The notes beneath the pieces are model-generated. The model was not told where the DNA came from and made no database searches. It saw only the letters and a program-made list of their open reading frames with translations. Below, piece by piece: positions 9,770-36,854 of a stretch of 40,930 bases of DNA. Where the stretch lies: the NCBI GenBank assembly GCA_025964625.1, contig JAOPYL010000070.1, positions 1 to 40,930 on the forward strand, read 5' to 3'. Positions within the stretch are counted from its first letter, which is position 1, and the number at the start of each line of letters is the position of its first letter. The translations under genes were made by a program, and so were the position numbers. The DNA comes from Actinoallomurus sp. (lineage in GTDB: Bacteria; Actinomycetota; Actinomycetes; Streptosporangiales; Streptosporangiaceae).

Positions 9770-9771
9770 GG

Positions 9772-10641: not shown

Positions 10642-10664
10642 CGGCAACATTTCGCGTGTTGCCG
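10642..10664. promoter_or_regulatory. Candidate operator of the purine/ureide operon
   Basis: Perfect 8-bp inverted arms CGGCAACA (10642-10649) and TGTTGCCG (10657-10664) surround TTTCGCG. The centre lies about 100 bp upstream of the uraD start, a suitable place for a repressor or activator dimer. No regulator gene is adjacent, so the cognate protein (for instance an IclR, GntR, TetR or PucR-class purine regulator) is unknown. Confidence 0.5.
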
Positions 10665-10785
10665 CGACCATGCCCCGCCGCCGGCGCTCGAACCGCCCGC
10701 GGCGGCCACTGGCGCGAGCGCGTCCCCCTCCCGGTGTGCGTGAAGGCGGGATGTGGCCGTTCCAGGCCGGATGACCCACGGGATC

Positions 10786-10814
10786 TTGCCGCCGCCCGTA
10801 CCGCGCCTTATGGT
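10786..10814 (+). promoter_or_regulatory. Candidate sigma70-type promoter for the secreted alpha/beta-hydrolase
   Basis: TTGCCG (10786-10791) and TATGGT (10809-10814) are separated by exactly 17 bp and fit the actinomycete TTGNNN / TANNNT pattern. They lie about 110 bp upstream of the ATG at 10926. Confidence 0.45.
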
Positions 10815-10925
10815 GCAGCGACCGGCCAGCCGGGTAGGGCGTACGCGCGCCGCACCCACATCCCACCCGGCGGACCGCCCCCGTACCGCACAGGGCCCAT
10901 GGCGGCCCATCCCAAGGAGTCCTCC

Positions 10926-22010: not shown

Positions 22011-23213
22011 ATGAGCCGCGACCAGATCGACCGCGCCCTGGAGCGCCTCAAGGGCGAACGGGAACGCATCACCACCGTCCTGTTCGAGCTTGAGGCGCAC
22101 CAGGGCTACCAGCTGCTGAAGGGCACGCGGCTGGCCGGCGCCACCCAGCGGTGCTGGAACGAGCTGAACGGCCGCATGACCACACTGTGGAAGCTGTTCG
22201 ACGCCCACGGACGGGTGCTCGGCGAGGCACAGGAGCTGCGGGCCCGCCACTCCCGGCCCGGCCAGGCCCAGCTCGCCGAGCTGACCCGGCTGCTGACCGG
22301 CACCTCCGTCGAGCTGGTCAGTCAGGAGATCCCCCTCGAGGAGAGGACTCTCCTCGGCCCCACCGGCGAATGGCTCTCGCTCGACGCGGTCGTGGCCCGC
22401 ATGACCCCTCTCTATGAGGACGCGGCGGGGACGATCGCCGCCGTCGACGGCGTCTGGTCGGTGCTCCTGACCCGGTTGGGCGAGGCCGAGGACACGTCGC
22501 GGACCGTGGAGGCGCTCCTCGGCTCGCTCGGCATCCAGGACGCGGAGTTCGACCGGGTCGGCCGGCGGCTGGCCGAGGTGCGGGAGGCGGCGCGGACCGA
22601 CCCGTTGTCGCTCGCATCCGGCGGCCAGGCCGACACGAGCCGCATCGACGAGGTCGGCGACGATCTCACGGCGCTGCGCCGCCGCCTGGAGGACGCCGCC
22701 CGGCTCCGCGACGAGCACGATGACCGGATGCGGGGCATCGAGGCGACGATCGGGCTGGTGAAGGCGGCGGAGGAAGAGGCGGTCCAGGCCCGGGACCTGG
22801 TCCTCTCCAAGATCGCCTCTCCCGCGCTCCCGGACCTCCCCGGGCTCGCCGCCCCCCTCCGAGACCGTCTCGCGGTCCTGGGCACGCTTCGCGGCGAGGG
22901 ACGCTGGATCGACCTGGCGGCCCGGGCGGCCGGACTGGAGAGAGCCGCCGCCACCGCACTCGACCAGGCACGCACCACCACCGGCCTGATCACCGGCCTG
23001 CTGGAACGGCGCGACGAGCTGCGCGGACGGCTGGACGCCTACCACGCCAAGGCGGGGCGCCTCGGGCTCGCCGAGGACGCCGGGCTGGCCGAGCTCCACC
23101 AGCAGGCCCACGACCTGCTGTGGACGTCCCCGTGCGACCTGCGGGGGGCCACGGCCACACTGGCGAAATACCAGCGGGCGATCGGATCGCACGCGGAGGG
23201 GACGGGTAGATGA
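22011..23213 (+). CDS. Helical protein of unknown function, first gene of the PknG operon
   Basis: A 400-residue soluble protein without a recognised domain. It is rich in Leu, Ala, Arg and Glu and should be mostly alpha-helical or coiled-coil, for example residues 1-35 and the block LRRRLEDAARLRDEHDDRMRG. There are no transmembrane segments and only two cysteines. The ATG at 22011 is used here; a TTG at 21978 in the same frame has GAGGA 4 nt upstream and is a real alternative adding 11 residues. Its stop overlaps the pknG ATG (ATGA). Strict coupling to a kinase suggests a scaffold, substrate or regulator of the kinase module. Confidence 0.85.
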   Translation: MSRDQIDRALERLKGERERITTVLFELEAHQGYQLLKGTRLAGATQRCWNELNGRMTTLWKLFDAHGRVLGEAQELRARHSRPGQAQLAELTRLLTGTSVELVSQEIPLEERTLLGPTGEWLSLDAVVARMTPLYEDAAGTIAAVDGVWSVLLTRLGEAEDTSRTVEALLGSLGIQDAEFDRVGRRLAEVREAARTDPLSLASGGQADTSRIDEVGDDLTALRRRLEDAARLRDEHDDRMRGIEATIGLVKAAEEEAVQARDLVLSKIASPALPDLPGLAAPLRDRLAVLGTLRGEGRWIDLAARAAGLERAAATALDQARTTTGLITGLLERRDELRGRLDAYHAKAGRLGLAEDAGLAELHQQAHDLLWTSPCDLRGATATLAKYQRAIGSHAEGTGR

Positions 23214-25411
23214 GTCAGTGCACCCAGCCGGGATGCACGGGAACGGTCGAGGACGGCTACTGCGTCGTATGCGGCATGGCCCCCGCCGCCGCCTCGGCCG
23301 GCACACCCAGCGCGGAGACGGGCAGCCCCACCATCGGGAGCACTCCGTCCGGCCGGAGCGGCCGCACCGGCTCCACGCGCTCCCGGCCGTCGGGTCGCGG
23401 CATGCTCGGCATCGGCCTGGTCGAAGTGCCGCGTGTCCCCTACCGGGACCCCGCCTCGGCCGTACGGCAGAACCCCGAGGTGGCCGAGAACAGGCGGTTC
23501 TGCGGAGGCTGCGGCGCGCCGGTCGGGCGCGCCCGCGGTGAGCGGCCGGCCCGTACCGAGGGCTTCTGCCCCAACTGCGGCGCCGGGTTCTCCTTCACTC
23601 CGAAGCTGCGGCCGGGTGATCTGGTCGGCGGCCAGTACGAGGTGCTGGGCTGCCTGGCCCACGGCGGCCTCGGGTGGATCTATCTCGCGCGCGACCACAA
23701 CGTCAGCGGCCGGTGGGTGGTGCTGAAGGGCCTGCTCGACACCGGCGACGCCGACGCCCTGGCGGCCGCGGCCGCCGAACGCGCGTTCCTCGCCGAGGTC
23801 GAACACCCGAACATCGTCAAGATCTACAACTTCGTGCAGCACGCCGGCTCCGGCTACATCGTCATGGAGTACGTCGGCGGGCAGTCGCTCAGGGACGTGC
23901 TCCTGGAGCGGCGGCAGCGGGGCGGCGAGGACTCCCTCCCCCTCGGCCAGGCCATCGCGTACGGGCTGGAGCTCCTGCGGGCGCTCGGCTACCTGCACGG
24001 GCTGGGCCTCATCTACTGCGACCTCAAGCCGGACAACGCCATCCAGTCCGATGAGCAGCTCAAGCTCATCGACCTGGGCGGGGTCCGCCGCCTCGACGAC
24101 GCCGACAGCGCGATCTACGGAACGGTCGGCTACCAGGCTCCGGAGATCGCGGACCAGGGGCCGTCGGTCAGCTCCGATCTCTACACCGTGGGCCGCACGC
24201 TCGCGGTGCTCAGCTTCCCGTTCACGGGCTACACCAGCACCTACGCGAACAGCCTGCCGCCCCGTGCGGACGTCCCGTTGCTCCAGCGGTTCGAGTCCTA
24301 CGACCGGCTGCTGCGCCGCGCCACCCACGCCGACCCCGCGGCGCGTTTTCAGGACGCGACGGAGATGGCCGAGCAGCTCACCGGCGTCCTGCGTGAGGTG
24401 CTGTCGACACAGGACGGGCAGCCGCGGCCCAGCCCGTCGCCGCTGTTCGGCATGGAACTGGCGGCCATCGGTACCGAGATCGGGGGCGGCATGGGCGCCG
24501 CGCTCCCCCCGCCCGCCCCCGCCGACGTGGCCGCTGCGCTGCCCACGCCGCTGGTCGACGGCGCCGATCCGGCCGCCGGCCTCCTGGCCGGCCTCACCGC
24601 CGTCGAGCCGGAGCAGATCGTGGCCGCCCTCACGTCCGCACCGGTCTCGTCACCCGAGGTCGGCCTGATGCTGGCGCGGGTCCGCATCGAACTCGGTGAC
24701 CTCAACGAGGCGCACCGGCTCCTCGACGAGCTCGCGGCCGGCCTGCCCGGAGACTGGCGGGCCGGCTGGTACCGGGCGACCGCGGCGCTGGCGGGAGAGA
24801 ACGTGCGCGACGCCGAACGGCTCTTCGACGAGATGTACTCCCTGCTGCCCGGTGAGGCGGCTCCCAAGCTCGGCCTGGCGTTCTGCCGGGCGCACCGCGG
24901 GGACCACGCCGGCGCGGCGCACCTGTACGAGACGGTCTGGCGCACCGACCACGGCTACATCAGCGCGGCGTTCGGGGTGGCCCGGGCACGGCTGGCGGAG
25001 GGAGACAGCGCCGCCGCCGTGGGGGTCCTGGACTCCGTCCCGAACATCTCGAGCCATCATGTCGCCGCCCAGGTCGCCGCGGTGGCGACCGCCGTCCGGG
25101 GCCGTGCCCCCGCCGATCTCACCGAACCCGACCTGGTCGGCGCGGGCGGCAGGCTGACCGGCCTCAAGCTCGACGGCGAACGCCGCGGGCGGCTTGTGGC
25201 GGAGGTTCTGGAGGCCGGTCTCGCCTGGCTGCGCGCGGACCGGCCCGGCCCGGCGAGCGGGAGATTGTTCGACGCGCCGCTGACCGAGCGCCACCTGCGC
25301 CGCAAGCTCGAGGAGACCTACCGGGGGCTGGCCCGTCTCGCCGACACGACCGGCGACCGCCACGAGCTGGTCGTCCGGGCCAACGCCGCACGGCCGAGGA
25401 CGCTGTTCTAG
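23210..25411 (+). CDS. pknG: PknG-type serine/threonine protein kinase
   Basis: A 733-residue soluble kinase with the PknG architecture. Residues 4-21 form an extra zinc ribbon ending DGYCVVCG; a Ser/Thr/Gly-rich linker follows; the rubredoxin-like domain uses Cys98, Cys101, Cys120 and Cys123. The kinase domain (about 140-400) has Lys173 in VVLKG, Glu196 as the likely alpha-C glutamate, catalytic Asp271 in YCDLKPDN and DLG at 288-290 instead of DFG. TPR-like helices at about 480-610 include the PknG-typical MYSLLPGEAAPKLGLAFC. In mycobacteria and corynebacteria PknG phosphorylates the FHA protein GarA/OdhI to relieve inhibition of 2-oxoglutarate dehydrogenase. Here phosphatase, FHA reader, GlnX and GlnH are encoded downstream in the same operon. 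Confidence 0.93.
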   Translation: MSQCTQPGCTGTVEDGYCVVCGMAPAAASAGTPSAETGSPTIGSTPSGRSGRTGSTRSRPSGRGMLGIGLVEVPRVPYRDPASAVRQNPEVAENRRFCGGCGAPVGRARGERPARTEGFCPNCGAGFSFTPKLRPGDLVGGQYEVLGCLAHGGLGWIYLARDHNVSGRWVVLKGLLDTGDADALAAAAAERAFLAEVEHPNIVKIYNFVQHAGSGYIVMEYVGGQSLRDVLLERRQRGGEDSLPLGQAIAYGLELLRALGYLHGLGLIYCDLKPDNAIQSDEQLKLIDLGGVRRLDDADSAIYGTVGYQAPEIADQGPSVSSDLYTVGRTLAVLSFPFTGYTSTYANSLPPRADVPLLQRFESYDRLLRRATHADPAARFQDATEMAEQLTGVLREVLSTQDGQPRPSPSPLFGMELAAIGTEIGGGMGAALPPPAPADVAAALPTPLVDGADPAAGLLAGLTAVEPEQIVAALTSAPVSSPEVGLMLARVRIELGDLNEAHRLLDELAAGLPGDWRAGWYRATAALAGENVRDAERLFDEMYSLLPGEAAPKLGLAFCRAHRGDHAGAAHLYETVWRTDHGYISAAFGVARARLAEGDSAAAVGVLDSVPNISSHHVAAQVAAVATAVRGRAPADLTEPDLVGAGGRLTGLKLDGERRGRLVAEVLEAGLAWLRADRPGPASGRLFDAPLTERHLRRKLEETYRGLARLADTTGDRHELVVRANAARPRTLF

Positions 25412-25413
25412 CC

Positions 25414-26403
25414 ATGGGAGCCCCTAAGACGAGAGAGCGCACCTGCCCCGCCTGCGACGTCCCGGTGTACCCGGGCGAAGACTTCTGCGAGGCGTGCGGC
25501 CATCGCCTCGGCGCCACCGTGGCCGCCTGTACGGCATGCGGTGCGACCGCCATCAGCGCCGACGGCTACTGCGACCACTGCGGGCTGCGGCAGCCGGCCG
25601 GTGGCGACCACGTCGAGATCGATGCCCGCGCCGCCGCCGGCGTGAGCGACCGCGGCCTGCGGCACAGCCGCAACGAGGACGCGATGGCGCTGACCGACGC
25701 CGGCGAAGGCGTGGCGGCGGTCGTGTGCGACGGTGTCTCCTCCTCGTCCCGGCCCGAGGACGCGTCACGGACGGCCGCGGACACCGGGGCCGCCGCGCTC
25801 GCCGAGCTGCTGGCGGCCGGCACGGCCCCGAAGGCGGCCACCCGCACCGCCCTCACCAGGGCCGCCGAGGCCGTCGCCGCGCTGGCGGGCGATGACGGAC
25901 CGCACGCCGCGGCGGCCGAACCGCCCTCCTGCACGTACGTGTCGGCACTGACGCACGACGGTTCGGTCACGGTCGGCTGGGTGGGCGACAGCCGCGCCTA
26001 CTGGCTGTCCGCGGGCGGCGGCGCGCGGCTCACCGACGACGACTCGTGGGCCGGTGAGATGGTCGCGGCCGGCGTGCTGAGCGAGGCCGAGGCGCAGGCG
26101 CACCCGAACGCGCACGTCATCACCGCCTGGCTGGGTGCGGACGCCGACGAGCCCGACCCGCACGTGACGACCTTCACGCCGGACGGCCCCGGCGTGGTCC
26201 TCGTGTGCAGCGACGGGCTCTGGAACTACCTCCCCGAGCCCGCCGAGCTGGCCTCGGCCGTACCCGATGCCGTGTCAGAGCCCCTGACCGCGGCCCGGTC
26301 GCTGACGCGCCTCGCCCTCGACGCCGGCGGCCGGGACAACATCACCGTCGTGGTGATCCCCTTCTCATCCCCCGTACACCCGACCCTGGAGCAGGCCGAA
26401 TGA
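25414..26403 (+). CDS. PP2C-family serine/threonine phosphatase with N-terminal double zinc ribbon
   Basis: A 329-residue phosphatase. Two zinc ribbons occupy residues 11-56 (Cys11/14/25/28 and Cys39/42/53/56; the second ends DGYCDHCG). The PP2C domain then shows GVSDRGLRHSRNEDA (Asp79, Asp90), VVCDGVSSS (Asp106), VGWVGDSRAYWL, LVCSDGLWNY and GGRDNITVVV, i.e. the acidic residues that bind two or three Mg/Mn ions. It starts 2 bp after pknG and overlaps the VWA gene by 4 bp. The logical role is to reverse PknG phosphorylation of the kinase itself or its substrates. Confidence 0.93.
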   Translation: MGAPKTRERTCPACDVPVYPGEDFCEACGHRLGATVAACTACGATAISADGYCDHCGLRQPAGGDHVEIDARAAAGVSDRGLRHSRNEDAMALTDAGEGVAAVVCDGVSSSSRPEDASRTAADTGAAALAELLAAGTAPKAATRTALTRAAEAVAALAGDDGPHAAAAEPPSCTYVSALTHDGSVTVGWVGDSRAYWLSAGGGARLTDDDSWAGEMVAAGVLSEAEAQAHPNAHVITAWLGADADEPDPHVTTFTPDGPGVVLVCSDGLWNYLPEPAELASAVPDAVSEPLTAARSLTRLALDAGGRDNITVVVIPFSSPVHPTLEQAE

Positions 26404-27704
26404 GCGGCAATCCGGACTTCACGCTCACGATCGATCAGAACAAGTACCTTCCCGAAGGCGGCCAGGAGGTGCACGCGGTCGTGACGGTCGAGGCCGGCGG
26501 GGCGCCGGCCGGCGGTGCCACCAGGTCCACGGCCGCCGCCGAGGTCATCATCATCGACACGTCCGGGTCGATGGACTACCCGCCCGCCAAGATGTCCTCG
26601 GCGATCAAGGCGGCGCAGACCGCGGTGGACGCGCTGCGCGACGGCGTCCACTTCGCCGTGGTCTCCGGCTCGGCCCGGGCACGGATGGTCTATCCGGCGG
26701 GCGAGCAACTGGTCGCCGCGGACGCAGGCACCCGCCGGGAGGCCAAGGCCGCGCTGGACCAGGTGCGCGCGGCCGGTGGAACCGCCATCGGAACGTGGCT
26801 GCGCCTGGCCGACCGGCTGTTCGCCCCCCATCAGGACGGCATCCGGCACGCCATCCTGCTCACGGACGGGAAGAACCAGCACGAGAGTCCCGAACAGCTC
26901 GACGCCACGCTGGCCGCCTGCACGGGCCGGTTCGTGTGCGACTGCCGGGGCGTCGGCACGGACTGGGACGTCGCCGAGCTGCGCAAGGTTGCGTCGGCCC
27001 TGCTGGGCAGCGTCGACATCGTGGCCCACCCGAACGACCTGGTCACCGACTTCCAGGCCATGACCGAGGCCGCCATGGGCAAGGCGGTCGCCGACGTGGT
27101 CCTGCGGGTGTGGATCCCGCAGACCGCCCGGCTGCGCTTCGTCAAGCAGGTGATGCCCGCGGTCGAGGACCTGACCGCCAAGCGGGTGGATGCCGGCCCG
27201 CGGGCCGGCGACTACCCCATCGGCGCCTGGGGTGAGGAGAGCCGCGACTATCACCTCTGCGTCGAGGTGTCACCGGGAAACGTCGGCCAGGAGTTGCGGG
27301 CCGCGTGGGTCAAGCTGGTGCTCCCCGGCTCAGGCGGGGAGGAGCAGGTGCTGGCGACCGGGAACGTGCTGGCCGAGTGGACCGACGACGAGGCCCAGTC
27401 GACCCGGATCAATCCCCGGGTGGCGCACTACACGGGCCAGGCCGAACTCGCCGTCGCCATCCAGGAAGGGCTCGCGGCCCGTAAGGACGGCGACTTCGAC
27501 ACCGCGACCACCCGGCTCGGCCGCGCGGTCGCGCTGGCCCACGAGTCGGGCAACGATGCGATCGCCTCGCTGCTCGGCAAGGTCGTGGACGTCGAGGATC
27601 CCGCGACCGGCACCGTACGCCTGAAGAAGAACGTCGACAAGGCGGATGAGATGTCGCTGGACACGAGGTCGAGCAAGACCGTACGGACACGCAAGGAGGG
27701 CTGA
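26400..27704 (+). CDS. VWA-domain protein of the kinase module
   Basis: A 434-residue cytosolic protein with a von Willebrand factor A domain at about 45-230. The metal-ion-dependent adhesion site is intact: Asp53-x-Ser55-x-Ser57 in IIDTSGSMD, a Thr in GGTAIGTWL and Asp in LLTDGKNQ. A beta-rich segment follows (about 240-340), then a helical TPR-like part (VAIQEGLAARKDGDFDTATTRLGRAV) and a basic, Ser/Thr-rich tail (SSKTVRTRK). There is no signal peptide or membrane segment. Kinase, PP2C and VWA genes also travel together in TerY-type triads, suggesting a phospho-regulated scaffold. Confidence 0.9.
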   Translation: MSGNPDFTLTIDQNKYLPEGGQEVHAVVTVEAGGAPAGGATRSTAAAEVIIIDTSGSMDYPPAKMSSAIKAAQTAVDALRDGVHFAVVSGSARARMVYPAGEQLVAADAGTRREAKAALDQVRAAGGTAIGTWLRLADRLFAPHQDGIRHAILLTDGKNQHESPEQLDATLAACTGRFVCDCRGVGTDWDVAELRKVASALLGSVDIVAHPNDLVTDFQAMTEAAMGKAVADVVLRVWIPQTARLRFVKQVMPAVEDLTAKRVDAGPRAGDYPIGAWGEESRDYHLCVEVSPGNVGQELRAAWVKLVLPGSGGEEQVLATGNVLAEWTDDEAQSTRINPRVAHYTGQAELAVAIQEGLAARKDGDFDTATTRLGRAVALAHESGNDAIASLLGKVVDVEDPATGTVRLKKNVDKADEMSLDTRSSKTVRTRKEG

Positions 27705-27706
27705 GC

Positions 27707-28489
27707 ATGCCGACCTGTCCCGCCGGACATTCCTCCGGCGCCGACGACTACTGCGACACCTGCGGCGCCCGTATGGCGGGCCCGCCGCCGGTCACCTCAC
27801 CGGCCGCCCCGACGTCGCCGGCCTCTGCCGGCGCGGAAGGCACCGGCGAGCCGTGTCCCGAGTGCGGGACGCAGCGGACGGGCCGCTTCTGCGAGGACTG
27901 CGGCTACGACTTCGCCGTGGGCGCAGGACAGCCCACACCGGTCACCGGCCCGATGCGCCTCGTTCAGCCCGCCACGACGACGTCCTCGGACATCACGGAG
28001 CCGCCCCGCGACGTCACCGCGCCGAGCGGGGGCACGGCACCGGGCCCCACGCTGGAAGCGCCGGCCGGCGAGGTACCGGGCTGGACCGCCGTGGTCACGG
28101 CGGACCGCGACTACTACGAGACGGTGCTCAGGCAGGGTGGTGGGACCGGCCCGGACGCCGGGGCCTTCACGTTCCCGCCGTACTGCCCGGAGCGGCGCAT
28201 TCCGCTCACCGGGCAACACGTCCGGATCGGACGGCGCAGCGTCTCGCAGGGCACCGTGCCGGAGATCGACCTCGGCGAGCCCCCCGAGGACCCGGGCGCC
28301 TCGCACACTCACGCGGTGCTGCTCGCCAAGCAGGACGGCACCTGGACGCTGGTCGATCCCGGCTCCACGAACGGCACCACGATCAACCACGGCAACGAGC
28401 CCATCGCGGTCAACGTGGAGGTGCCGATGTCCGACGGCGACCGCATCCACGTCGGCGTCTGGACCACCATCACGCTGCGGAGAGGATGA
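27707..28489 (+). CDS. FHA-domain protein with two N-terminal zinc ribbons
   Basis: A 260-residue phosphothreonine-binding protein. Two zinc ribbons lie at residues 4-19 (ending DDYCDTCG) and 50-65 (CPEC...CEDC). A disordered Thr/Pro-rich linker (about 75-125, including ATTTSSDIT at 89-97) precedes the FHA domain at about 168-258, where RIGRR (Arg176), SHTHAVL (Ser199, His200) and STNGTTIN (Ser220-Thr221-Asn222) are the phosphopeptide-binding motifs. The layout, Thr-rich tail plus FHA, recalls GarA/OdhI, the PknG substrate, but with added zinc ribbons. It lies 2 bp after the VWA gene. Confidence 0.92.
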   Translation: MPTCPAGHSSGADDYCDTCGARMAGPPPVTSPAAPTSPASAGAEGTGEPCPECGTQRTGRFCEDCGYDFAVGAGQPTPVTGPMRLVQPATTTSSDITEPPRDVTAPSGGTAPGPTLEAPAGEVPGWTAVVTADRDYYETVLRQGGGTGPDAGAFTFPPYCPERRIPLTGQHVRIGRRSVSQGTVPEIDLGEPPEDPGASHTHAVLLAKQDGTWTLVDPGSTNGTTINHGNEPIAVNVEVPMSDGDRIHVGVWTTITLRRG

Positions 28490-28496
28490 GGCTGCG

Positions 28497-29921
28497 GTGA
28501 CCATCACGGCGGCTCCACCGTCAGGATCACCGGCTCGGCGTTCCGCCGTGAGCCGGGTCATCAGGAACCGGTCGATGCCGGCACGCATCAGGGCGCTCGC
28601 CGTCCTCGCCGTCCTGGTGGTCGCCGGCATGTTCGCGGTCGCCGGGCTGGCCGTCCAGGACGCGCGGGACGGGCTACGGGTGATCGGGCACGACGCGGGT
28701 CCGCAGGTGGTCGCCACCGGCGACCTCTACTTCGCGCTCAGCGACATGGACGCCCAGCTCGCCGACGTGCTCCTGATCGGGCGGGAACAGAACCTCGGCA
28801 AGGGCCGCGCGGAGGCACTGAAGCTGTACGACCAGCGCCGCTCGGAGGCGAACCGCGCCCTGCTGCAGGGCTCGAAGCTGGCCGGGAACGACCCGGCCGA
28901 GCAGCGGACGGCACAATCGATGCTGGACGCGCTGGGGCGCTATGAGCGGCTGGCCGGCCAGGCCCTGCAGCTGGACGAGCAGCAGAACCACGCCGCGGGG
29001 CCGCCCGGGCCGGAGGTCACCGCCCTCTACCGGCAGGCGACCGACCTGATGAAGCTGGACGCGCTGCCCAAGGCGTACAACCTCACACTCGACAACGGGA
29101 CGACCGTGCGCCGCACCTATGAGTCCAAGCACTCCTCGGTGCTGGCCGGGCGGGTGTGGGTGGTCCTCGCGGGCGGCGTGCTCATCATCGTCCTGGTCGC
29201 CCTGCAGGCCTACCTCGCCGTGCACTTCCGACGGTTGATCAACCCCGGCCTCGCTGTCGCGACGGTCGGCGTCGCGGCCTTGGCGGTGGTCGCCGTCGGC
29301 CTCCTGACCAGCGAGGCCGGTCATCTCCAGAAGGCGAAGTACGACGGGTTCGACTCGGTGCTGTCGCTGTCACGGGCCCGGGCGATCAGCAACAACGCCA
29401 ACGCCGACGAGAGCCGCTACCTGCTCGACCCGGGCCGGGCCGACACCTACGAGCAGGTCTACCTGGACAAGTCACAGGAGATCCTGTTCGTCCCCGCGGG
29501 CAACCTCGACACGTATTACGCGCAACTGGACCGGCGGCTGGCCGCCCACACCGGCTTCATGGGCTTCTACGGGACGGAGGCGCGTCACGTCACCCTTCCC
29601 GGCCAGCGCGCGGCCGTCGACGCGATGCTGTCGGGTTACCAGCGGGTGCAGCAGGACGACGCCCGCATCCGGGCGCTGGCCGGCGCCGGCGGCCGGCACG
29701 AGGCGATCGTCGTCCGGACGGGCACCGCCACCGGCGACTTCGACCGGTACGACCAGGCGCTCGTGTCGCTCACGGCCATTCACCAGAAGGCGTTCGAGGG
29801 TGCCATCCGCGGCGGCGACCACGGGCTTGACGGGTGGGACCTGGGCCTTCCCGGCGCCGCCCTCGCCATCGCCGTCCTCATCCTCGCCGGTGTACGGCCC
29901 CGGCTGTCCGAGTTCCGCTGA
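28497..29921 (+). CDS. glnX: GlnX-like four-helix membrane protein
   Basis: A 474-residue membrane protein. The GTG start at 28497 lies 7 bp after the FHA stop with TGAGG 5 nt upstream. Transmembrane helices are predicted at about 33-54, 219-241, 251-272 and 449-466. This gives two large extracytoplasmic helical segments (about 55-218 and 273-448) and a cytosolic N-terminus. In mycobacteria and corynebacteria GlnX has this topology and, with GlnH, relays extracellular amino acid status to PknG. Order and orientation next to a GlnH-like lipoprotein support the assignment. No histidine-kinase or methyl-accepting domain is seen. Confidence 0.82.
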   Translation: MTITAAPPSGSPARRSAVSRVIRNRSMPARIRALAVLAVLVVAGMFAVAGLAVQDARDGLRVIGHDAGPQVVATGDLYFALSDMDAQLADVLLIGREQNLGKGRAEALKLYDQRRSEANRALLQGSKLAGNDPAEQRTAQSMLDALGRYERLAGQALQLDEQQNHAAGPPGPEVTALYRQATDLMKLDALPKAYNLTLDNGTTVRRTYESKHSSVLAGRVWVVLAGGVLIIVLVALQAYLAVHFRRLINPGLAVATVGVAALAVVAVGLLTSEAGHLQKAKYDGFDSVLSLSRARAISNNANADESRYLLDPGRADTYEQVYLDKSQEILFVPAGNLDTYYAQLDRRLAAHTGFMGFYGTEARHVTLPGQRAAVDAMLSGYQRVQQDDARIRALAGAGGRHEAIVVRTGTATGDFDRYDQALVSLTAIHQKAFEGAIRGGDHGLDGWDLGLPGAALAIAVLILAGVRPRLSEFR

Positions 29922-29945
29922 GCCCGAGGCATAGGGAGCGAGTTA

Positions 29946-30761
29946 ATGCGAGTACGTGCGATCGGCATCGCGCTTGCGATGGCCGCGGGCATGACCGGAT
30001 GTGCCGGTAACGGGCCGCGGTCAATCCTCGGGAAGGACAAACTGGCGATCGGCGTCACGGCGGACCAGCCGGGTCTCGGGTTCCGGTTCCCCGACGGCAC
30101 CTACAAGGGTTTCGACGTCGACGTCGCGACGTACGTCGCCGGACGGCTCGGGGTGAGCAAGAAGAACATCACGTTCAGGACGGTGACGTCGTCCCAGCGG
30201 GAGAAGGTGCTGCAGACCGGGAAGGTCGACCTGGTGCTGGCGACCTACTCGATATCGGCGGAGCGGAAGACCAAGGTCGCGTTCGGCGGGCCGTACTACG
30301 TCGCCCACCAGGACATCCTGGTCCGCAGGAGCGACACCTCGGTCAAGAACGTGCGCGACCTGGCCGGCCGGCGTCTGTGCCAGGTCACCGGCTCGCTCTC
30401 CTGGCAGCGCGTCACCGCGGAGAGAAAGGTCCCGGCCCGCCTGGTGCCGGCCGGCTCCTACGGCGAGTGCCTCACCAAGCTCAGGAACGGCACCCTCGAC
30501 GCCATCTCCACCGACGACCTGATCCTGGCCGGCTTCGCCGCCCAGCAGCCGCAGGCGGTCAGGATCGTCAACGTCCCCTTCTCCGATGAGCGCTACGGCG
30601 TCGGGGTCCGTCTGGAGGACGTGGACGGCTGCGAGGCGGTCAACAAGGCCGTCACCGAGATGTACCAGGACGGCACCGCGGGGGCCCTCCTCGGCAAGTG
30701 GTTCGGGTCGTCGGGTCTGCACCTGACCAACACCGTCCCCCAGTTCGAGGGCTGCAGCTGA
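29946..30761 (+). CDS. glnH: GlnH-like glutamate/aspartate-binding lipoprotein
   Basis: A 271-residue solute-binding lipoprotein of the SBP_bac_3 family. The signal peptide ends in the lipobox MTGC with Cys19. The binding fold shows KLAIGVTADQPGLGFRFPDGTYKGFDVDVA, VDLVLATYSISAERKTKVAFGGPYY and, in lobe 2, LAGRRLCQVTGS and DAISTDDLILAGFA. The ATG is preceded by AGGGAG with a 7-nt spacer, 24 bp after glnX. There is no permease or ATPase gene nearby, so it more likely acts as the ligand sensor for GlnX and PknG than in transport. Ligand specificity (Glu, Asp or Gln) is inferred from homologs. Confidence 0.88.
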   Translation: MRVRAIGIALAMAAGMTGCAGNGPRSILGKDKLAIGVTADQPGLGFRFPDGTYKGFDVDVATYVAGRLGVSKKNITFRTVTSSQREKVLQTGKVDLVLATYSISAERKTKVAFGGPYYVAHQDILVRRSDTSVKNVRDLAGRRLCQVTGSLSWQRVTAERKVPARLVPAGSYGECLTKLRNGTLDAISTDDLILAGFAAQQPQAVRIVNVPFSDERYGVGVRLEDVDGCEAVNKAVTEMYQDGTAGALLGKWFGSSGLHLTNTVPQFEGCS

Positions 30762-30866: not shown

Positions 30867-31340
30867 TCACCCGGCCGTGTTCATCTCCTGGGCGGCGGCT
30901 TCTACGGCATCGACGATTCCGACGTAGCCGGTGCAGCGGCAGATATTGCCGGAAAGCTCTGCGCGAATACGCTCTCTGCTGGGGTTGGTCTCGCGGTGCA
31001 ACAGGTCCAGTGCCGACATCAGCATGCCGGGTGTGCAGAAACCGCACTGCAGCCCGTGGTGGTCGCAGAACGCCTTCTGCAGCGGGTGCGGAGTACCGTC
31101 GGCGCCGGCCATCCCCTCTACGGTGGTCACTGAGCTTCCCTCGGCTTGCACCGCGAACATCAGGCATGCGCGGACTGGTTCGCCGTCGACCAGGACGGTA
31201 CAAGCTCCGCAGACTCCGTGTTCGCAGCCGAGGTGGGTCCCGGTGAGCCCGATGTCCTCACGCAGGGCGTCGGCGAGTGTCCTGCGCGGCTCAACGTCCA
31301 CGCTGTGACACGCGCCGTTGACCGTGAACTCCACATTCAT
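30867..31340 (-). CDS. Molybdenum hydroxylase [2Fe-2S] small subunit (CoxS-like)
   Basis: A 157-residue iron-sulfur subunit. Cluster ligands are Cys39, Cys44, Cys47 and Cys59 (GCEHGVCGAC...C) and Cys99, Cys102, Cys134 and Cys136 (QCGFCTPGM, GNICRCTGY). The ATG at 31340 overlaps the FAD subunit stop (ATGA). This is the last gene of the minus-strand catabolic operon and completes a three-subunit hydroxylase with the FAD and molybdopterin proteins upstream. It is clearly a different protein from the small subunit in the purine operon. Confidence 0.93.
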   Translation of the reverse strand: MNVEFTVNGACHSVDVEPRRTLADALREDIGLTGTHLGCEHGVCGACTVLVDGEPVRACLMFAVQAEGSSVTTVEGMAGADGTPHPLQKAFCDHHGLQCGFCTPGMLMSALDLLHRETNPSRERIRAELSGNICRCTGYVGIVDAVEAAAQEMNTAG

Positions 31341-32182
31341 CAAGCAGCTCCGTTGTCTGGTGCGGCGGTCGCCCGGGTCAGTGCCCGGCGGGTGAATTCC
31401 TCGGTCATCGCGCGCCGGTAGTCCCCGGAGGCGTGGATGTCAGTGGACGGTTCGATTCCGGCGGCCGTGGCCGCCGCGGCACGGGCGATGGTCACCTCGG
31501 TGAGAGGTCCGTCGGCGAGCAGCGCCTCGGCTTCGGCCGGCCGGTAGGGGACACTGCCGACGCCACCGACCGCGATGCGCCATCGGCCCTCGATCTCGGC
31601 CGCGACCACGGTGACGAGACCGAAGTCCCCATGTCGCCGGGAGAGCTCCGCGAAACCCCACCGCTGCGGGATGGGCAACTCGACCGAGGTGATCATTTCC
31701 TCCTCGGTCAGCGATGTCTCGAGTGCACCGACGAACAGGTCCCCGGCCTCGACCTCCCGTGAACCCCGCGGCCCCGCGACCCGTACGACCGCGTCCAATG
31801 CCGCGGCGACGACGGGGAGCTCGGCGGAGGGGTCGGCGTGAGCGATGCTGCCACCGGTCGTGCCGCGGGAGCGGATCGCGGTATGGCCGATCCAGCCGGC
31901 GACCTCCGCGAGCAGCGGATGGTCACACTGCCGCATCAGTGCCGAGTGGCGTACCAGTGCACCGATCCGGATGGACGACTCACTCGTACGCGTGATTCCA
32001 CCGAGGCCCGGAATCCTGTTGACGTCGACCAACAGCGCAGGCCTGGCCATCCGTAGCGCCAGGACGGGGGCGAGGCTCTGACCTCCGGCGATGATCTTTC
32101 CTTCGCCGTGCGCGTCGGCCAGCGCACGCACCGCCTCCTCGACACTGCGGGCACGGAGATAGTCGAACCGTGCGGATTTCAT
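31340..32182 (-). CDS. Molybdenum hydroxylase FAD-binding subunit (CoxM-like)
   Basis: A 280-residue FAD subunit. The two FAD pyrophosphate loops are AGGQSLAPVLALRM near residue 32 and RSRGTTGGSIAHADPSAELP near residue 105, both characteristic of the CoxM family; EEEMITSVELP and the C-terminal CO_deh_flav_C region follow. It overlaps the small-subunit gene by 4 bp and lies 12 bp after the crotonase-like gene, which separates it from the large subunit. Confidence 0.93.
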   Translation of the reverse strand: MKSARFDYLRARSVEEAVRALADAHGEGKIIAGGQSLAPVLALRMARPALLVDVNRIPGLGGITRTSESSIRIGALVRHSALMRQCDHPLLAEVAGWIGHTAIRSRGTTGGSIAHADPSAELPVVAAALDAVVRVAGPRGSREVEAGDLFVGALETSLTEEEMITSVELPIPQRWGFAELSRRHGDFGLVTVVAAEIEGRWRIAVGGVGSVPYRPAEAEALLADGPLTEVTIARAAAATAAGIEPSTDIHASGDYRRAMTEEFTRRALTRATAAPDNGAA

Positions 32183-32194
32183 CTTTGGCTTCCC

Positions 32195-32923
32195 CTATCG
32201 GCCGTTGAACTCAGGCGCACGCTTTTCCGCCCGCGCGCGCCGGGCTTCGGCGACGTCCTCACTGCGCCAGCAGGCATCGAACGCGGCGTCCAGTCCGGGG
32301 TCCCACGGCCCGGGCTCCAGCAGCGCGGTCAGCGCCCGCTTCGAGTAGGCCAGCGACATGGGCGCGAACGAAGCGATCTCCTCGGCCCAGCCGAGCGCCG
32401 CCTCGATATCGCCGAGACGATCGACCAGCCCTTGCCGCAGAGCATGTTCGGCGCCGATCTGGTCGCAGCCGAGCAGCATGGCCCGGGCCGCGCCGCCGCC
32501 GGCAAGAATGGCGAGCCTGCGGATCGTCCAGGGGTCGACTGCCAGCCCGTTGCGTGCGGTCGGTACCGCGAAGACCGCCTCCGGCCTGGCGACTCGCAGG
32601 TCGCACGCGACGGCCAGCTGGGTCCCCGCTCCGATCGCCGGACCGTTCACCGCGGCGATCACGGGGATCGGCGCGGCGACGATGCTGTTCAGCGCCGCGT
32701 ACAGGGCGCCGCGGAAATCATCGCCGTACACACCGCCGAGATCCGCCCCCGCGCAGAAGCTCGTGCCGGCGCCGGTTATCACCAGCGCACGCGCACCGGA
32801 GCCGGTGGCATTCTCCACTGCCTCGCGCAGGGCGTCGCAGTGCTCGACGTCGAGAGCGTTGCGGCGTTCGTGGCGATCGATCTCGATGAGCCCGACGCCG
32901 CGCCGCCGTTCGGAGTTGATCAT
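32195..32923 (-). CDS. Enoyl-CoA hydratase/isomerase-like (crotonase fold) protein lacking both catalytic Glu
   Basis: A 242-residue crotonase-fold protein. The CoA/oxyanion motifs are present: SFCAGADL (59-62) and NGPAIGAG (93-100). However, the two glutamates of hydratases are replaced: the GGGxELA motif reads GAGTQLA (Gln102) and the FxxPE motif reads FAVPT (Thr122). Simple hydration of an enoyl-CoA is therefore unlikely; isomerase, C-C hydrolase, decarboxylase or binding roles remain possible. The ATG at 32923 overlaps the stop of the large hydroxylase subunit (ATGA), unusual placement inside a coxS/M/L-type gene set. Confidence 0.87.
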   Translation of the reverse strand: MINSERRRGVGLIEIDRHERRNALDVEHCDALREAVENATGSGARALVITGAGTSFCAGADLGGVYGDDFRGALYAALNSIVAAPIPVIAAVNGPAIGAGTQLAVACDLRVARPEAVFAVPTARNGLAVDPWTIRRLAILAGGGAARAMLLGCDQIGAEHALRQGLVDRLGDIEAALGWAEEIASFAPMSLAYSKRALTALLEPGPWDPGLDAAFDACWRSEDVAEARRARAEKRAPEFNGR

Positions 32924-35277
32924 TGGATCGCCGCCCATACCGCCGCGGGGGTTATCGGAAGCCGGGTGATCTCCGTGCCCAGCGCGTCGGCGACCGCGCC
33001 GGCGAGCACGGCGTTGGGGCCGAGCGTGCCGCCCTCCCCGACGCCGCGTACGCCCAGCGGGTTGTCCGCCGGCATGGAGATGTGGTCGATGATCAGTTCG
33101 GGAACTTCGGCGCTGGTCGGCATCAGGTAGTCCATCAGGGTCCCGGTGCTGAGGTTTCCGGCCTCGTCATAGATGAGGTGCTCGTAGAGCGCCCCTCCGA
33201 TGCCCTGGGCGATGGAGCCGGCGATCTGGCCCTCCACGATCTGCGGATTGATCACCCGGCCGGCGTCCTCGACGCATACCCATTTCAGAATGCGCAGCTC
33301 GCCGGTCGAGCGATCGATCTCGACGGTCGCGGCCTGGGCCCCGGCCGCGAACGCGCCACGGATGGGATCGAAGAAGCGGGTGGCTTCCAAGCCTGGTTCG
33401 ATGCCCTCGGGTAGCCGGTTCGACTCGAGATAGGCCACACGGGCGATCTCCGCGAGCGAGGCGAGCGGCTCGGGCTCACCTGTGCGGCGGATCTGCCCGT
33501 CCTCCAGGCGGAGGTCGTCGATTTCGGCGTCGAAGAGCGCGGCTGCGAGTCGCAGTGCCTTCTCCTTCACCGCCTCGCCGGTGCGGTGCGCGGCGCCGCC
33601 GCCGATCACGGCCTGTCGGGAGGAGAAGGCGCCGAAGCCCCACAGCGACTCGTTGGTGTCGCCGATACGGACCTCGACGTCGTCGTAGGCGACACCGACG
33701 GCGTCAGCGACGATCTGCGCGACAGTGGTCTCCAGCCCCTGCCCCTGTGAGGTCACTCCACTGAGGACGGTCACCCGGCCATCGGGGTTGATGCGTACGG
33801 TGCAGGCGTCGTGTCCGGTGCGGAAGGGCATCCGCGGTCCGGCGGCGGCGGCACGGCCCAGTCCGGTGAGTTCGTTGTAGCAGGCCACGCCGATGCCGAT
33901 CGGGTTCTCACCCGCTTCCCGGCGCCGGCTCTGCTCGGCGAGGAACTCCTCGTAGCCGATGGCGTCGATCACCTTGTCCAGGCACTTGCCGTACCACCCG
34001 GAGTCGTCCACCAGCCGCGACGGCATCCGGTAGGGGATCTCTTCGGGCTGGATCAGGTTGCGCCGCCGGATGTCCAGAGCGGACATGCCCAGCTCTCTGG
34101 CCGCCGCGTCCATGAGCGATTCCATGGCGAACACGCTGGCCGGGCGCGCCACACCGCGGTACGGGCCCGACGGTGAGGTGTTGGTCGCGACCCCGCGTAC
34201 GGTGCAGCGGTAGTTCTCCAGCCGGTAGGGGCCGGACAGCAGCCCGCCCGCCATCAGCGGCTCGATGCCCGCGGTCCACGGATACACGGAGTACGCGCCC
34301 ACGTTGCATGTGACGTCGGCCTCCAGCGCCAGCAGCTGCCCGTCGGTGCCGAAACCCGCCTTCACCACGTAGCGGTGGTCCCGGGCGTGGGTCGCGGCGA
34401 GGAGATGTTCCGCGCGGTCCTCCACCCACTTCAACGGCACGCCGCGCATCGCGCGTGCCATCAGGCACAAGGCGACGTCTTCCGGGTAGAGCACGGCTTT
34501 GGTGCCGAACCCGCCGCCGACGTCGGGGGCGATGACCCTGACGTTGCCCTCGGGCAGCCCGAGCAGTTCGGCGAGCATGTTGCGGGCGATGTGCGGTACC
34601 TGGGTGCCGGACCAGAAGGTCAGCTTGTCGTCGGCTCCGTCCCACAGTGCCACACCCACGCGGCACTCCATCGGGTTACCCGCGTGCCGGTTGGTCACGA
34701 GCTCCCGCTCGACCACCAGAGGCGCCGTCGCGAGGGCACCGGCCACATCTCCGGCATCGAAAGTTCGTTGCAGCAGTACGTTGTCCGGTGCGGCCGCGTG
34801 CACGGGTTCTTCGGGTGCGATCCATGCGGTCACCGTGGCCGGTAGCGGTTCGTAGTCGACGTCGATCAGCTCGATCGCGTCCTCGGCGATGTAGCGGTCA
34901 TCGGCCACGACGGCCGCGACCGCCTCACCGGAGAAGCGCGCCTTCTGCCAGGCCAGGATCGGCTGGTCGGTCTCGACATACGACGGCAGCGCGGACCGCG
35001 CCCGCAGCGTGATGGCCGAGAACTCCGGCATCTCTCCGGTGAACACTCCGTGCACCCGCGGCGCCTTCGCGGCCTCGGTGGCGTCGACACCGCGGATCCT
35101 GGCGTGACCGTACGGACTGCGCAGGAAGGCCACATGGCGCATCCGTGGCAGCTCCAGGTCCGAGGCGTAGTGACCGCGTCCGGTGACGAGGCGACCGTCC
35201 TCCTTGCGGCGGACGGTGGTGCCGACGCTGCGCCGTGCGGTCTCACCGCCGGGCTCATTGCTCATGGACGGCATCAC
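32920..35277 (-). CDS. Molybdenum hydroxylase molybdopterin-binding large subunit (CoxL/XdhB-like)
   Basis: A 785-residue large subunit of the xanthine oxidase family. Features are RKEDGRLVTGRGHYASD at the N-terminus, DVGGGFGTKAVLYPED near 252-267, the active-site loop PYRGVARP at 372-379, GQGLETTVAQIVAD and the catalytic Glu748 in VGEGG. The cysteine-containing AYxCSFR loop of form I CO dehydrogenases is absent, so CO oxidation is not supported; hydroxylation of an aromatic, heteroaromatic or activated carbon is expected. Starts at GTG 35277 (GTGA overlap with the SDR stop), ATG 35274 or ATG 35265 are all possible. The coupled acyl-CoA ligase suggests a carboxylic acid or CoA-ester substrate. 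Confidence 0.92.
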   Translation of the reverse strand: MMPSMSNEPGGETARRSVGTTVRRKEDGRLVTGRGHYASDLELPRMRHVAFLRSPYGHARIRGVDATEAAKAPRVHGVFTGEMPEFSAITLRARSALPSYVETDQPILAWQKARFSGEAVAAVVADDRYIAEDAIELIDVDYEPLPATVTAWIAPEEPVHAAAPDNVLLQRTFDAGDVAGALATAPLVVERELVTNRHAGNPMECRVGVALWDGADDKLTFWSGTQVPHIARNMLAELLGLPEGNVRVIAPDVGGGFGTKAVLYPEDVALCLMARAMRGVPLKWVEDRAEHLLAATHARDHRYVVKAGFGTDGQLLALEADVTCNVGAYSVYPWTAGIEPLMAGGLLSGPYRLENYRCTVRGVATNTSPSGPYRGVARPASVFAMESLMDAAARELGMSALDIRRRNLIQPEEIPYRMPSRLVDDSGWYGKCLDKVIDAIGYEEFLAEQSRRREAGENPIGIGVACYNELTGLGRAAAAGPRMPFRTGHDACTVRINPDGRVTVLSGVTSQGQGLETTVAQIVADAVGVAYDDVEVRIGDTNESLWGFGAFSSRQAVIGGGAAHRTGEAVKEKALRLAAALFDAEIDDLRLEDGQIRRTGEPEPLASLAEIARVAYLESNRLPEGIEPGLEATRFFDPIRGAFAAGAQAATVEIDRSTGELRILKWVCVEDAGRVINPQIVEGQIAGSIAQGIGGALYEHLIYDEAGNLSTGTLMDYLMPTSAEVPELIIDHISMPADNPLGVRGVGEGGTLGPNAVLAGAVADALGTEITRLPITPAAVWAAIQ

Positions 35278-36038
35278 GGCATCGCGTAGCCGCCGTTGAC
35301 CGACAGGACTTGCCCCGTGGTCCAGGACGACAGTGGTGAGGCCAGCAGCAGGACGGCGGGGGTGACGTCCTCCGACCGCCCGAGCCTGCGCAGGGGGTAG
35401 GCGGAGAGGATCTTCTTCATCTTCGCTTCGTCGGCATTACCCGTGTGTGCGTCCAGGTTCCCGGTCTGCACGAGGGCGATCGACACCGCGTTCGCGCGGA
35501 TCTTGTACCGGGCCAGTTCCTTGGCCAGGGACTTGGTCAGGCCGACCGTGGTGGAGCGGGTGGTGGCCGTGACGAGCAGGCGCGATTCGCCGACCCGGCC
35601 CGAGTCGCCCATCAGGCTGACGATCGAGCCACCGCCATGGTCGACCATCTGCCTGGCCACCGCCTGCGCCACGCGAAGTGTGCCCGCCACGGTGACCTCG
35701 ATCTGAGGTGCCCAGTCCTCCTCGGTGGTCTCCAGGAACGGCTTGCTCTGCGTGGCCGCGGCATTGTTGATCAGCACGTCGATCGGGCCCAGCCGCGTCT
35801 TCACGTCGGCTACCGCGGTGTCGACGGCGGCACCGTCGCGCAGGTCGGCGCCGATGGCGATGGCCTTCACGCCGAGGGCGGTGGCTTCCTTCGCCGCTTC
35901 CTCCGCTCCAGCAGCGGAGGAGTTGTAGTGGAAGGCGACGTTGGCGCCTTCCTGCGCGAAGGCGAGCCCGATGGCTCGGCCGAGCCCTTGTCCGGCGCCC
36001 GTGACGAGGACCGTCTTGCCGGTCAGCTGCAGATCCAT
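35274..36038 (-). CDS. SDR-fold protein with a degenerate active site
   Basis: A 254-residue short-chain dehydrogenase/reductase fold protein. The cofactor motif TGAGQGLG (13-20) and the NNA motif (90-93) are intact, so NAD(P) binding is likely. An ungapped comparison with FabG-type SDRs shows every catalytic-tetrad position changed: Asn to Thr116, Ser to Gly144, Tyr to Thr157 and Lys to Arg161 (TATTR where YSAxK is expected). Normal carbonyl reduction or alcohol oxidation is therefore doubtful. It may use other chemistry or serve as a cofactor-binding partner. It overlaps the large hydroxylase subunit gene and follows the MBL gene by 18 bp. Confidence 0.88.
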   Translation of the reverse strand: MDLQLTGKTVLVTGAGQGLGRAIGLAFAQEGANVAFHYNSSAAGAEEAAKEATALGVKAIAIGADLRDGAAVDTAVADVKTRLGPIDVLINNAAATQSKPFLETTEEDWAPQIEVTVAGTLRVAQAVARQMVDHGGGSIVSLMGDSGRVGESRLLVTATTRSTTVGLTKSLAKELARYKIRANAVSIALVQTGNLDAHTGNADEAKMKKILSAYPLRRLGRSEDVTPAVLLLASPLSSWTTGQVLSVNGGYAMP

Positions 36039-36056
36039 GTCGGCTCTCTTCTCCTC

Positions 36057-36854
36057 TTAGATGACGTTCCACTGGCGCCGGCCGGACACCGTGACGAGCC
36101 GTCCGAAACGCAGACCCGGGAAGTGCGCGCCGGCGATCGCGTCCGGGTGGTCGGCGACTTCGTCGGCGAGCCGCGCTCGTACGGCCTTGGCCGCGATCGG
36201 GTCGACATCGAACACCGCTTGCCAGTCAGGGTCGGTGAGCTCCACGATCGAATGTGCGACGTCCCCGAGCAGCAGCGCCCGCTCTCCTTCGCTCGAGACG
36301 ATGAAGACGGTGGAGCCGGGGGTGTGTCCGGGGGCGTGCCGGGTGTTGAGGCCGGGTGCGATGGCGATGTCCGCTTCGAAGGTTTCGAGGCGGTCCTTCA
36401 GCGGTGAGAGCTTCCGCACCGCGCCGGGTTCCGCGTCGGGGCTCTCCACGAAATGCGCCCAGTCGGCGGCGTGCACCCGGTAGGTCGCGTTCGGGAACAC
36501 GATCTCGCCCTTCTTGGTGGCCCAGCCGACGTGGTCGAAATGCAGGTGCGTGAACACGACGTCGGTGACGTCCTCCGGGGTGACACCGAGTTCGCCCAGG
36601 CTCTCCAGGAACCGGCCGCCGTGGTACTTGTCGTTGTCGATGGTGCCGACGCCCGCGTCGATGAGGACCGTGCGGCCACCGGTGCGCAGCAGGAACCCGC
36701 CGAGCGTGAGTTCCAGGTTCCCCCTGCCATCGAGCAGATGCTCGTGACAGGCCCAGGCGTCGCCGCGCGCGGCCGGACGGCTGAGCACCTCACGCGCGGA
36801 TTCATGGCCGTACCCGTCGTAGACCGGCCGGATCTCCAGTGAGCCGACCTTCAT
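36057..36854 (-). CDS. MBL-fold metallo-hydrolase
   Basis: A 265-residue metallo-beta-lactamase-fold hydrolase. Zinc ligands are His103, His105, Asp107 and His108 in THLHFDHVG, His176 in HAPGHTPGS, Asp198 in LLGDVAHS and a His in AGAHFPGLRFG. The protein resembles lactonase/thioesterase-like members, so it may open a lactone or cleave a thioester formed in the pathway; this is inference from context. The ATG overlaps the alcohol dehydrogenase stop (ATGA). There is no signal peptide. Confidence 0.9.
   Translation of the reverse strand: MKVGSLEIRPVYDGYGHESAREVLSRPAARGDAWACHEHLLDGRGNLELTLGGFLLRTGGRTVLIDAGVGTIDNDKYHGGRFLESLGELGVTPEDVTDVVFTHLHFDHVGWATKKGEIVFPNATYRVHAADWAHFVESPDAEPGAVRKLSPLKDRLETFEADIAIAPGLNTRHAPGHTPGSTVFIVSSEGERALLLGDVAHSIVELTDPDWQAVFDVDPIAAKAVRARLADEVADHPDAIAGAHFPGLRFGRLVTVSGRRQWNVI

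Follow-up and report, generated by a model that had tools for sequence, protein, structure and literature searches.

A seven-gene pknG locus with phosphatase, VWA and FHA genes recurs in several actinobacterial families and is probably a fuller form of the PknG pathway

Seven linked genes at a pknG locus of Actinoallomurus

We analysed a 40,930-nucleotide stretch of DNA from Actinoallomurus sp. (contig JAOPYL010000070.1 of assembly GCA_025964625.1, positions 1 to 40,930; hereafter the window), whose source genome is a draft of 5.84 Mb in 375 contigs. The open reading frame (ORF) coordinates place seven genes between 22011 and 30761, all on the plus strand, which encode in order a helical protein (HEL), a PknG kinase, a PP2C phosphatase, a VWA protein, an FHA protein, a GlnX-family protein and a GlnH-like protein and which are separated by -4, 2, -4, 2, 7 and 24 bases. 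An earlier description of this DNA made from the letters alone (the sequence-only reading) had reported seven plus-strand genes with these gaps, and our coordinates agree; its identities for PknG, PP2C, VWA, FHA, GlnX and GlnH were borne out by Pfam and NCBIfam, which confirm six of the seven proteins.

22011-23213, plus strand: HEL, first gene, 400 amino acids, long helices; ATG start, with TTG at 21978 also possible
23210-25411, plus strand: PknG-family Ser/Thr kinase with N-terminal zinc ribbon, rubredoxin-like domain, kinase domain and TPR domain (Pfam, 2pzi)
25414-26403, plus strand: PP2C-type Ser/Thr phosphatase with an N-terminal double zinc ribbon (Pfam, NCBIfam)
26400-27704, plus strand: VWA protein with the MIDAS-type motif DTSGSM and a VWA_3_C tail (Pfam VWA_3 and VWA_3_C)
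27707-28489, plus strand: FHA protein with two zinc ribbons, a variable linker and an FHA domain (Pfam, alignment of 25 sequences)
28497-29921, plus strand: GlnX-family membrane signal transducer, GTG start (NCBIfam NF058618)
29946-30761, plus strand: GlnH-like amino-acid-binding lipoprotein, lipobox MTGC read from the sequence (SBP_bac_3)

The domains of the kinase all score over their Pfam cut-offs (PF16919, PF00069 and PF16918, with PknG_TPR at 311 bits), and M. tuberculosis PknG (2pzi) aligns with it over residues 62-733 at 564 bits. Rubredoxin-like, kinase and PknG_TPR domains in one protein, together with the glnX and glnH genes linked at 28497-30761, place it in the PknG family. Its closest named relatives are those of Actinoallomurus iriomotensis (79% identity) and Actinomadura sp. 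DC4 (78%), and PknG_rubred, the GlnX family and VWA_3_C each have a single match in the source genome. A promoter scan of the locus gave no match, and the one terminator-like match lies on the opposite strand and is no more than was found in shuffled sequence.

In mycobacteria and Corynebacterium glutamicum, pknG, glnX and glnH form one operon (accessible text of PMC8546545, PMC9769921 and PMC6069109), an arrangement that the accessible text of PMC6069109 describes as widely conserved. No PP2C, VWA or FHA gene is named beside pknG in the accessible portions of PMC8546545, PMC9769921, PMC6069109, PMC12321487 and PMC1262709, and the words 'phosphatase' and 'VWA' are absent from the main text of PMC6069109. 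Like that operon, the window encodes a PknG with a TPR domain, a GlnX-family protein and a GlnH-type lipoprotein, and GarA/OdhI is found in the genome; unlike it, the window adds HEL, PP2C, VWA and FHA and carries glnX and glnH at the 3' end, its PknG has an N-terminal zinc ribbon, its GlnX falls below the equivalog cut-off and its GlnH has tyrosine in place of Trp232.

The seven-gene set is conserved across families

We next collected 160 loci, comprising the best 80 of 239 relatives in named genomes and 80 chosen from genomes with a PknG_TPR match; the sampling was not unbiased, and in at least four pairs the PknG rows are identical and the contigs match, so that one record is present twice. 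Classes were assigned with iterated hidden Markov models and set from gene content before any tree was built: type A1 has PknG, PP2C and VWA with GlnX after PknG, type A2 has GlnX before PknG, and type B consists of GlnX-GlnH-PknG only (in the labels below, L denotes a locus, G a genome and f a family code). PP2C and VWA stand beside PknG in 92 of the 160 loci, namely 49 of type A1, 34 of type A2 and 9 further type-A loci. The exact order HEL-PknG-PP2C-VWA-FHA-GlnX-GlnH of the window occurs in 39 of the A1 loci, and GlnX-GlnH-HEL-PknG-PP2C-VWA-FHA in 29 of the A2 loci. The nine further loci show no GlnX in the orientation of PknG within the stretch; seven of them are on cut contigs, L170 has a run of N and L185 has GlnH-GlnX inverted. 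Type B accounts for 43 of the 160 loci, and the other 25 include many cut contigs.

Type A was found in f1, f3, f8, f84 and f90, in two f4 genomes, in Amycolatopsis and in another class of the phylum (G189, L185), with the A2 order seen in f3, f8, f84, f90 and the two f4 genomes. We saw type B in no groups other than f4, f113 and the named Pseudonocardiaceae, apart from one record titled Rhodococcus (L087). Two f4 genomes, G719 (L186-L189) and G640 (L190-L191), carry both the three-gene and the seven-gene forms, so the two can exist side by side. By comparison, the genes that flank the set in the window are poorly kept, the upstream GH3 gene recurring in 2 of 13 relatives tested and the two downstream xanthine dehydrogenase-like (XDH-like) genes in none of the 13, and the conserved unit is therefore the seven genes. 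The neighbourhood survey suggested by the sequence-only reading thus finds the linkage of the partners in several families rather than in this strain alone; because the linkage recurs between families and does not extend to the tested flanking genes, chance is excluded as its cause.

Gene content across the class gave a similar picture. Among 394 genomes drawn over the class, in which genomes and not adjacency were counted, PknG_TPR scores over its cut-off in 141; HEL occurs in 80 of the 394 (77 of the 141 with PknG vs 3 of the 253 without) and VWA_3_C in 101 (96 of 141 vs 5 of 253). The HEL search misses distant forms, as the f8 loci have HEL by a broader model only. Second matches sometimes lie elsewhere, as in G607, where contig C260 has a weak HEL and VWA_3_C though its fetched PknG locus is of type B. 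The three genomes with HEL and no PknG match (G635, G658 and G667) could reflect decayed loci or contig gaps.

Some loci depart from these types. Divergent second PknG loci occur in f1, f3 and f90 genomes (L139, L156, L161, L173 and L199) and consist of PknG with VWA and a weak GlnX and no PP2C, or of PknG with GlnH-GlnX on the other strand. G719 has two more PknG genes without partners. At L158 (G369) a seven-gene locus looks decayed, with short or split matches to PknG, VWA, GlnX and GlnH and high scores for HEL, PP2C and FHA.

The seven-gene set was not described in any paper returned by a literature search that did not extend to most subscription papers or to bioRxiv. Others may already have noticed the gene order, which any genome browser displays, and NCBI curators know the spread of GlnX, as their GlnX-family model covers the GlnX of the window.

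The added proteins keep signature residues and several share zinc ribbons

To describe the proteins that accompany PknG, we examined signature residues in the A1 and A2 loci. The GDSR motif of PP2C is kept in all 49 A1 and all 34 A2 sequences, and the PP2C of the window reads GGRDNITV; the DxSxS motif of VWA is kept in 47 of 48 A1 and 33 of 34 A2 sequences. In the FHA protein, C4, C16, C19, C50, C62, G175, R176, S199, H202 and N222 are invariant over 25 aligned sequences. FHA domains bind phosphothreonine, and we take the conserved residues of the FHA domain to be the phosphothreonine binders of known FHA domains. As judged from sequence, PknG, PP2C, VWA and FHA carry the domains and most of the signature residues of working proteins. 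We also considered the FHA protein as a GarA-like switch, and dropped the idea when a conserved T-rich motif was not seen in the linker of the 25 sequences.

HEL has no family match in Pfam, NCBIfam, PHROGs or PADLOC. Its AlphaFold2 model is nearly all helix, with a mean predicted local distance difference test score (pLDDT) of 92.6. A Foldseek search of this model returned 0 matches at E <= 0.001; a second fold search gave a best Z of 12.4 (EzrA, root-mean-square deviation 7.1, 185 aligned residues), which is below the ~13 common for helical rods; and a profile search gave four weak matches to unrelated helical proteins, the best at E 0.0015. None of these searches points to a convincing relative of HEL among solved structures.

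Several of these proteins start with zinc ribbons. In the window PknG we read an N-terminal C-x4-C-x8-C-x2-C ribbon ahead of the rubredoxin-like domain, and by pattern such a ribbon is present in 48 of 49 A1, 29 of 33 scored A2 (in four f90 rows one of the four cysteines is missing, and one broken gene is unscored), 8 of 9 other type-A and 6 of 43 type-B PknGs. A ribbon-like N-terminal pattern, defined loosely for both proteins, is found in PP2C (49/49 A1, 33/34 A2) and in FHA (48/49 A1, 34/34 A2). N-terminal ribbons are thus common to PknG, PP2C and FHA, with GarA sharing them in most of these lineages, and they may serve as docking pieces. The six type-B PknGs with a ribbon come from five Pseudonocardiaceae records and one titled Rhodococcus rhodnii; the latter (L087) has a ribbon string identical to that of Kibdelosporangium aridum L086, and its label may be wrong. 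A first count of 0 in 41 three-gene PknGs had suggested the ribbon as a strict marker of the cassette, which we gave up when the wider look returned the six.

The sensor pair probably detects an acidic amino acid

The window GlnX scores 296 bits against the NCBIfam subfamily model NF058618 (cut-off 250) and fails the equivalog NF041460, protein kinase G-activating protein, at 61 bits vs a cut-off of 780. GlnH matches M. tuberculosis GlnH (6h1u) at E 8e-34. In that structure Arg147, Thr162 and Trp232 grip the side chain of the ligand, Ser164, Arg169 and Asp250 hold its backbone, and Lys161 makes contact via water (accessible text of PMC6069109). Aligned to Arg147, Thr162, Ser164, Arg169, Trp232, Asp250 and Lys161, the window GlnH reads R, T, S, R, Y, D and A, so that by this alignment five of the seven contacts are kept, with Trp232 replaced by tyrosine and Lys161 by alanine. 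Across 47 A1 (the window included), 33 A2 and 43 B sequences, with rows of other classes left out, the acid-binding Arg147 is invariant (123/123). Position 232, by contrast, is Trp in 43/43 type-B sequences, Tyr in 47/47 A1 and mixed in A2 (Gln in 17/33). These residues suggest that the ligand is likely an acidic amino acid, with a preference that has possibly changed; the accessible text of PMC6069109 predicts that all PknG-linked GlnH proteins bind amino acids.

A proposed signalling unit and its likely target, GarA

On balance, we favour the view that the seven genes make up one signalling unit, in which an acidic-amino-acid sensor would drive a kinase-phosphatase-reader module acting on GarA and perhaps on other targets. 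By analogy with work on M. smegmatis and C. glutamicum, GlnH would bind an acidic amino acid outside the cell, GlnX would relay the signal across the membrane and PknG would then be switched on, probably via its TPR domain. The PP2C of the operon would undo the marks set by PknG, the FHA protein would recognise phosphothreonines that PknG or its targets carry, and a scaffold of HEL and VWA would keep the parts together near GlnX. The most likely target is GarA, which acts as a brake on 2-oxoglutarate dehydrogenase; it may be modified at a site other than the usual threonine, and it may be one of several targets. The co-transcription, phosphorylation and scaffolding supposed here are inferred, as are the functions of the four added genes (HEL, PP2C, VWA and FHA), which we assign from domain type and linkage, and the role of VWA as a scaffold is a guess. 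How GlnX acts on PknG is called elusive in the accessible text of PMC9769921.

We therefore looked for GarA. The source genome shares with the GarA/OdhI switch on 2-oxoglutarate dehydrogenase the presence of GarA, here as two GarA-like genes; they score 198 and 187 bits, just under the family cut-off of 200, over near the full model length. One (L112) adjoins ORFs that we read as MerR-type-regulator-like and nuclease-like. The second (L113; G000:C230) also has a zinc ribbon, lies on a 3.3-kb contig and is a paralogue or a contaminant. A GarA match was present in 57 of 57 further genomes, 27 of 27 with type A and 30 of 30 with type B or without PknG; eleven type-B genomes enter this count, eight read at 16-20 kb loci and three (G038, G074 and G392) assigned to B since GlnH precedes PknG on a short locus and VWA_3_C is absent.

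An N-terminal zinc ribbon was found by script in 2 of 2 source-genome GarA copies and 21 of 23 other type-A copies, and four type-A copies that the script did not read (L208-L211) have it by eye, which gives 25 of 27 type-A genomes. None of the 11 type-B genomes has it. Among the PknG-less genomes read, it occurs in all 10 of the window's family and in none of the 6 others. The GarA loci of genomes with the ribbon include L112, L203-L227 and L241-L251. The word 'zinc' is absent from the main text of PMC12321487.

GarA of the source genome also has the T-rich motif. PknG phosphorylates C. glutamicum OdhI at Thr14 (accessible text of PMC9769921), and the residue after the equivalent position is threonine in 25 of 25 type-A GarA sequences read by script, the source-genome copies included. 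Nine of the 11 type-B genomes keep Thr at the Thr14-equivalent position, and the other two have Lys or Arg there. The position varies in type A as well, as given below; GarA is thus available as a target, but neither type holds strictly to its classic site. For the output other than, or additional to, the TCA cycle that the sequence-only reading considered, the evidence is therefore mixed, GarA being found in all genomes searched and its PknG-site residue being Ser in both source-genome copies.

Several observations weigh against the single-unit reading. The Thr14-equivalent is Ser in both source-genome copies, Ser or Ala in 10 of 23 other type-A copies (Thr 13, Ser 9, Ala 1) and, by eye, Gln in four more from f90. 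The GarA of the dual-form genomes G719 and G640 lacks the ribbon; in the 10 PknG-less genomes of the window's family, motif and ribbon persist, so these two features are independent of PknG. Ribbon and cassette are loosely coupled on the PknG side too, the ribbon occurring in the six three-gene PknGs and in L100 and L128. PP2C patterns are partly lost, SDGLW for instance being kept in 44 of 49 A1 and 12 of 34 A2 sequences, and members are truly missing at some loci: L059 and L060 are without PP2C, L127 is without VWA, L124 and L128 lack more, and L128, from the window's own family, is PknG-GlnX-GlnH alone. Finally, OdhI of C. glutamicum is dephosphorylated by the general phosphatase Ppp (accessible text of PMC9769921), so the pathway can run without a linked phosphatase.

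Two other accounts of the output deserve weight. One, which has a real if less than even chance, is that the set is an ordinary GarA switch doing the same job as the three-gene operon, with PP2C and FHA merely sharpening the GarA phosphorylation cycle. The presence of GarA in every type-A genome searched and in the source genome speaks for it, as do the threonine after the PknG site and the widespread type-A GarA ribbon; the PknG-site serine of both source-genome copies, whereas FHA domains bind phosphothreonine, and the persistence of motif and ribbon without PknG speak against it. These GarA copies also differ from the known switch in that ribbon and that serine. The other account, to which we give a slightly lower chance, makes the cassette a separate branch that controls targets other than GarA, for example envelope or developmental proteins, and leaves GarA to other kinases. 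It draws on the co-existence of both forms in G719 and G640, on the varying PknG site of GarA and on GlnH position 232, which is Tyr in A1 and mixed in A2 but Trp in the three-gene loci, and it is countered by the conserved set, which holds no candidate target gene, and by the flanking genes tested, which are not conserved.

The three-gene operon is probably a reduced form

To ask how the two forms are related, we built a maximum likelihood tree from the kinase and TPR part of PknG for 60 hand-picked loci and the window. Type-B rows fell into two separate clades: that of f4 is sister to two type-A copies of f4 genomes (L189 and L190; support 100/100), and that of Pseudonocardiaceae is sister to two type-A Amycolatopsis loci plus L100 (97/91). 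Forcing the B rows into one clade gave a best tree that was 53 log units worse and was rejected (approximately unbiased test, p-AU 7e-5), and a quick tree of 97 rows likewise split the two B groups. In a VWA tree whose deep forks are unsettled, the clade of the window's family (100/99) does not include the type-A copies of f4 and Amycolatopsis, which hence were not recently taken from it.

Loss is favoured by the confinement of type B to two groups when type A is found in f1, f3, f8, f84 and f90, by the presence of type A in a few members of both B groups and in one genome of another class, by the N-terminal ribbon retained in some type-B PknGs and by the position of the f4 and Amycolatopsis copies in the VWA tree. 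Against this, the root of the PknG tree was not inferred from the data and the direction rests on an outgroup row and the distribution; step counts alone cannot separate gain from loss. The converse history, a three-gene ancestor that gained the PP2C-VWA-FHA-HEL cassette once and lost it again in Pseudonocardiaceae, would take one gain and one loss, as many steps as two losses when the tree is unrooted. We find it improbable given how narrowly the three-gene order and how widely the seven-gene form are spread, the ribbon in some three-gene PknGs, and the A2 order, which has GlnX-GlnH upstream of PknG like the three-gene form.

Collectively, these results suggest that the PknG pathway probably has its older and more complete form in the seven-gene set, and that the three-gene operon is a reduced version that evolved at least twice, the mycobacterial operon being one that would have shed the linked phosphatase, reader and scaffold. 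The sequence-only reading had described an expanded operon that joins GlnH, GlnX and PknG to a phosphatase, VWA and FHA set; the joining proves tight and conserved, and it is the word 'expanded' that the PknG tree disfavours, pointing to reduction instead. A bolder version, which we offer tentatively, is that the seven-gene unit is the original actinobacterial PknG pathway, a complex tagged by zinc ribbons that has a sensor, kinase, phosphatase, reader and rod-like scaffold of its own and targets beyond GarA, and of which the three-gene operon is a remnant reduced on at least two occasions.

PknG is among the best-studied bacterial Ser/Thr kinases, and outside the two three-gene groups the usual locus in the PknG-bearing families we sampled adds a phosphatase, a likely phosphothreonine reader and two possible scaffolds. 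If the reduction reading is true, the model organisms are the exception, and if the seven-gene unit is the original pathway, knowledge of PknG covers only part of it. The added genes are concrete candidates for missing steps and are testable in harmless antibiotic producers; in one antibiotic-producing species a change in GarA raised antibiotic yield (accessible text of PMC12321487).

Other kinase-phosphatase systems and neighbouring genes

Other bacterial systems combine the same domain types. The TerY-P triad consists of a kinase, a PP2C and a vWA protein, and type VI secretion has a PpkA/PppA/Fha set of kinase, PP2C and FHA reader. The window shares the logic of the latter; unlike it, the seven-gene set holds no secretion gene and its VWA is a separate protein. 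The resemblance to TerY-type systems noted in the sequence-only reading extends to the three domain types encoded by neighbouring genes, and a TerY-type stress or conflict system with a recruited PknG is nonetheless very improbable, since the kinase has the full PknG domain set, FHA and an amino-acid sensor pair recur in the set, ter genes are absent from ten further window ORFs scanned with Pfam, and the PADLOC matches are to models of kinase domains (25 of 31 shown), plus one weak match to a PP2C model. An anti-phage role was set aside on the same PADLOC result.

Elsewhere in the window, minus-strand ORFs at 4927-11597 match a glycerate kinase, an amidohydrolase and an OHCU decarboxylase and look like a purine or allantoin breakdown cluster. 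A second minus-strand cluster at 30867-39408, convergent with the PknG unit, encodes subunits that we read from their sequences as xanthine/CO dehydrogenase-like, together with a zinc alcohol dehydrogenase and an aldehyde dehydrogenase.

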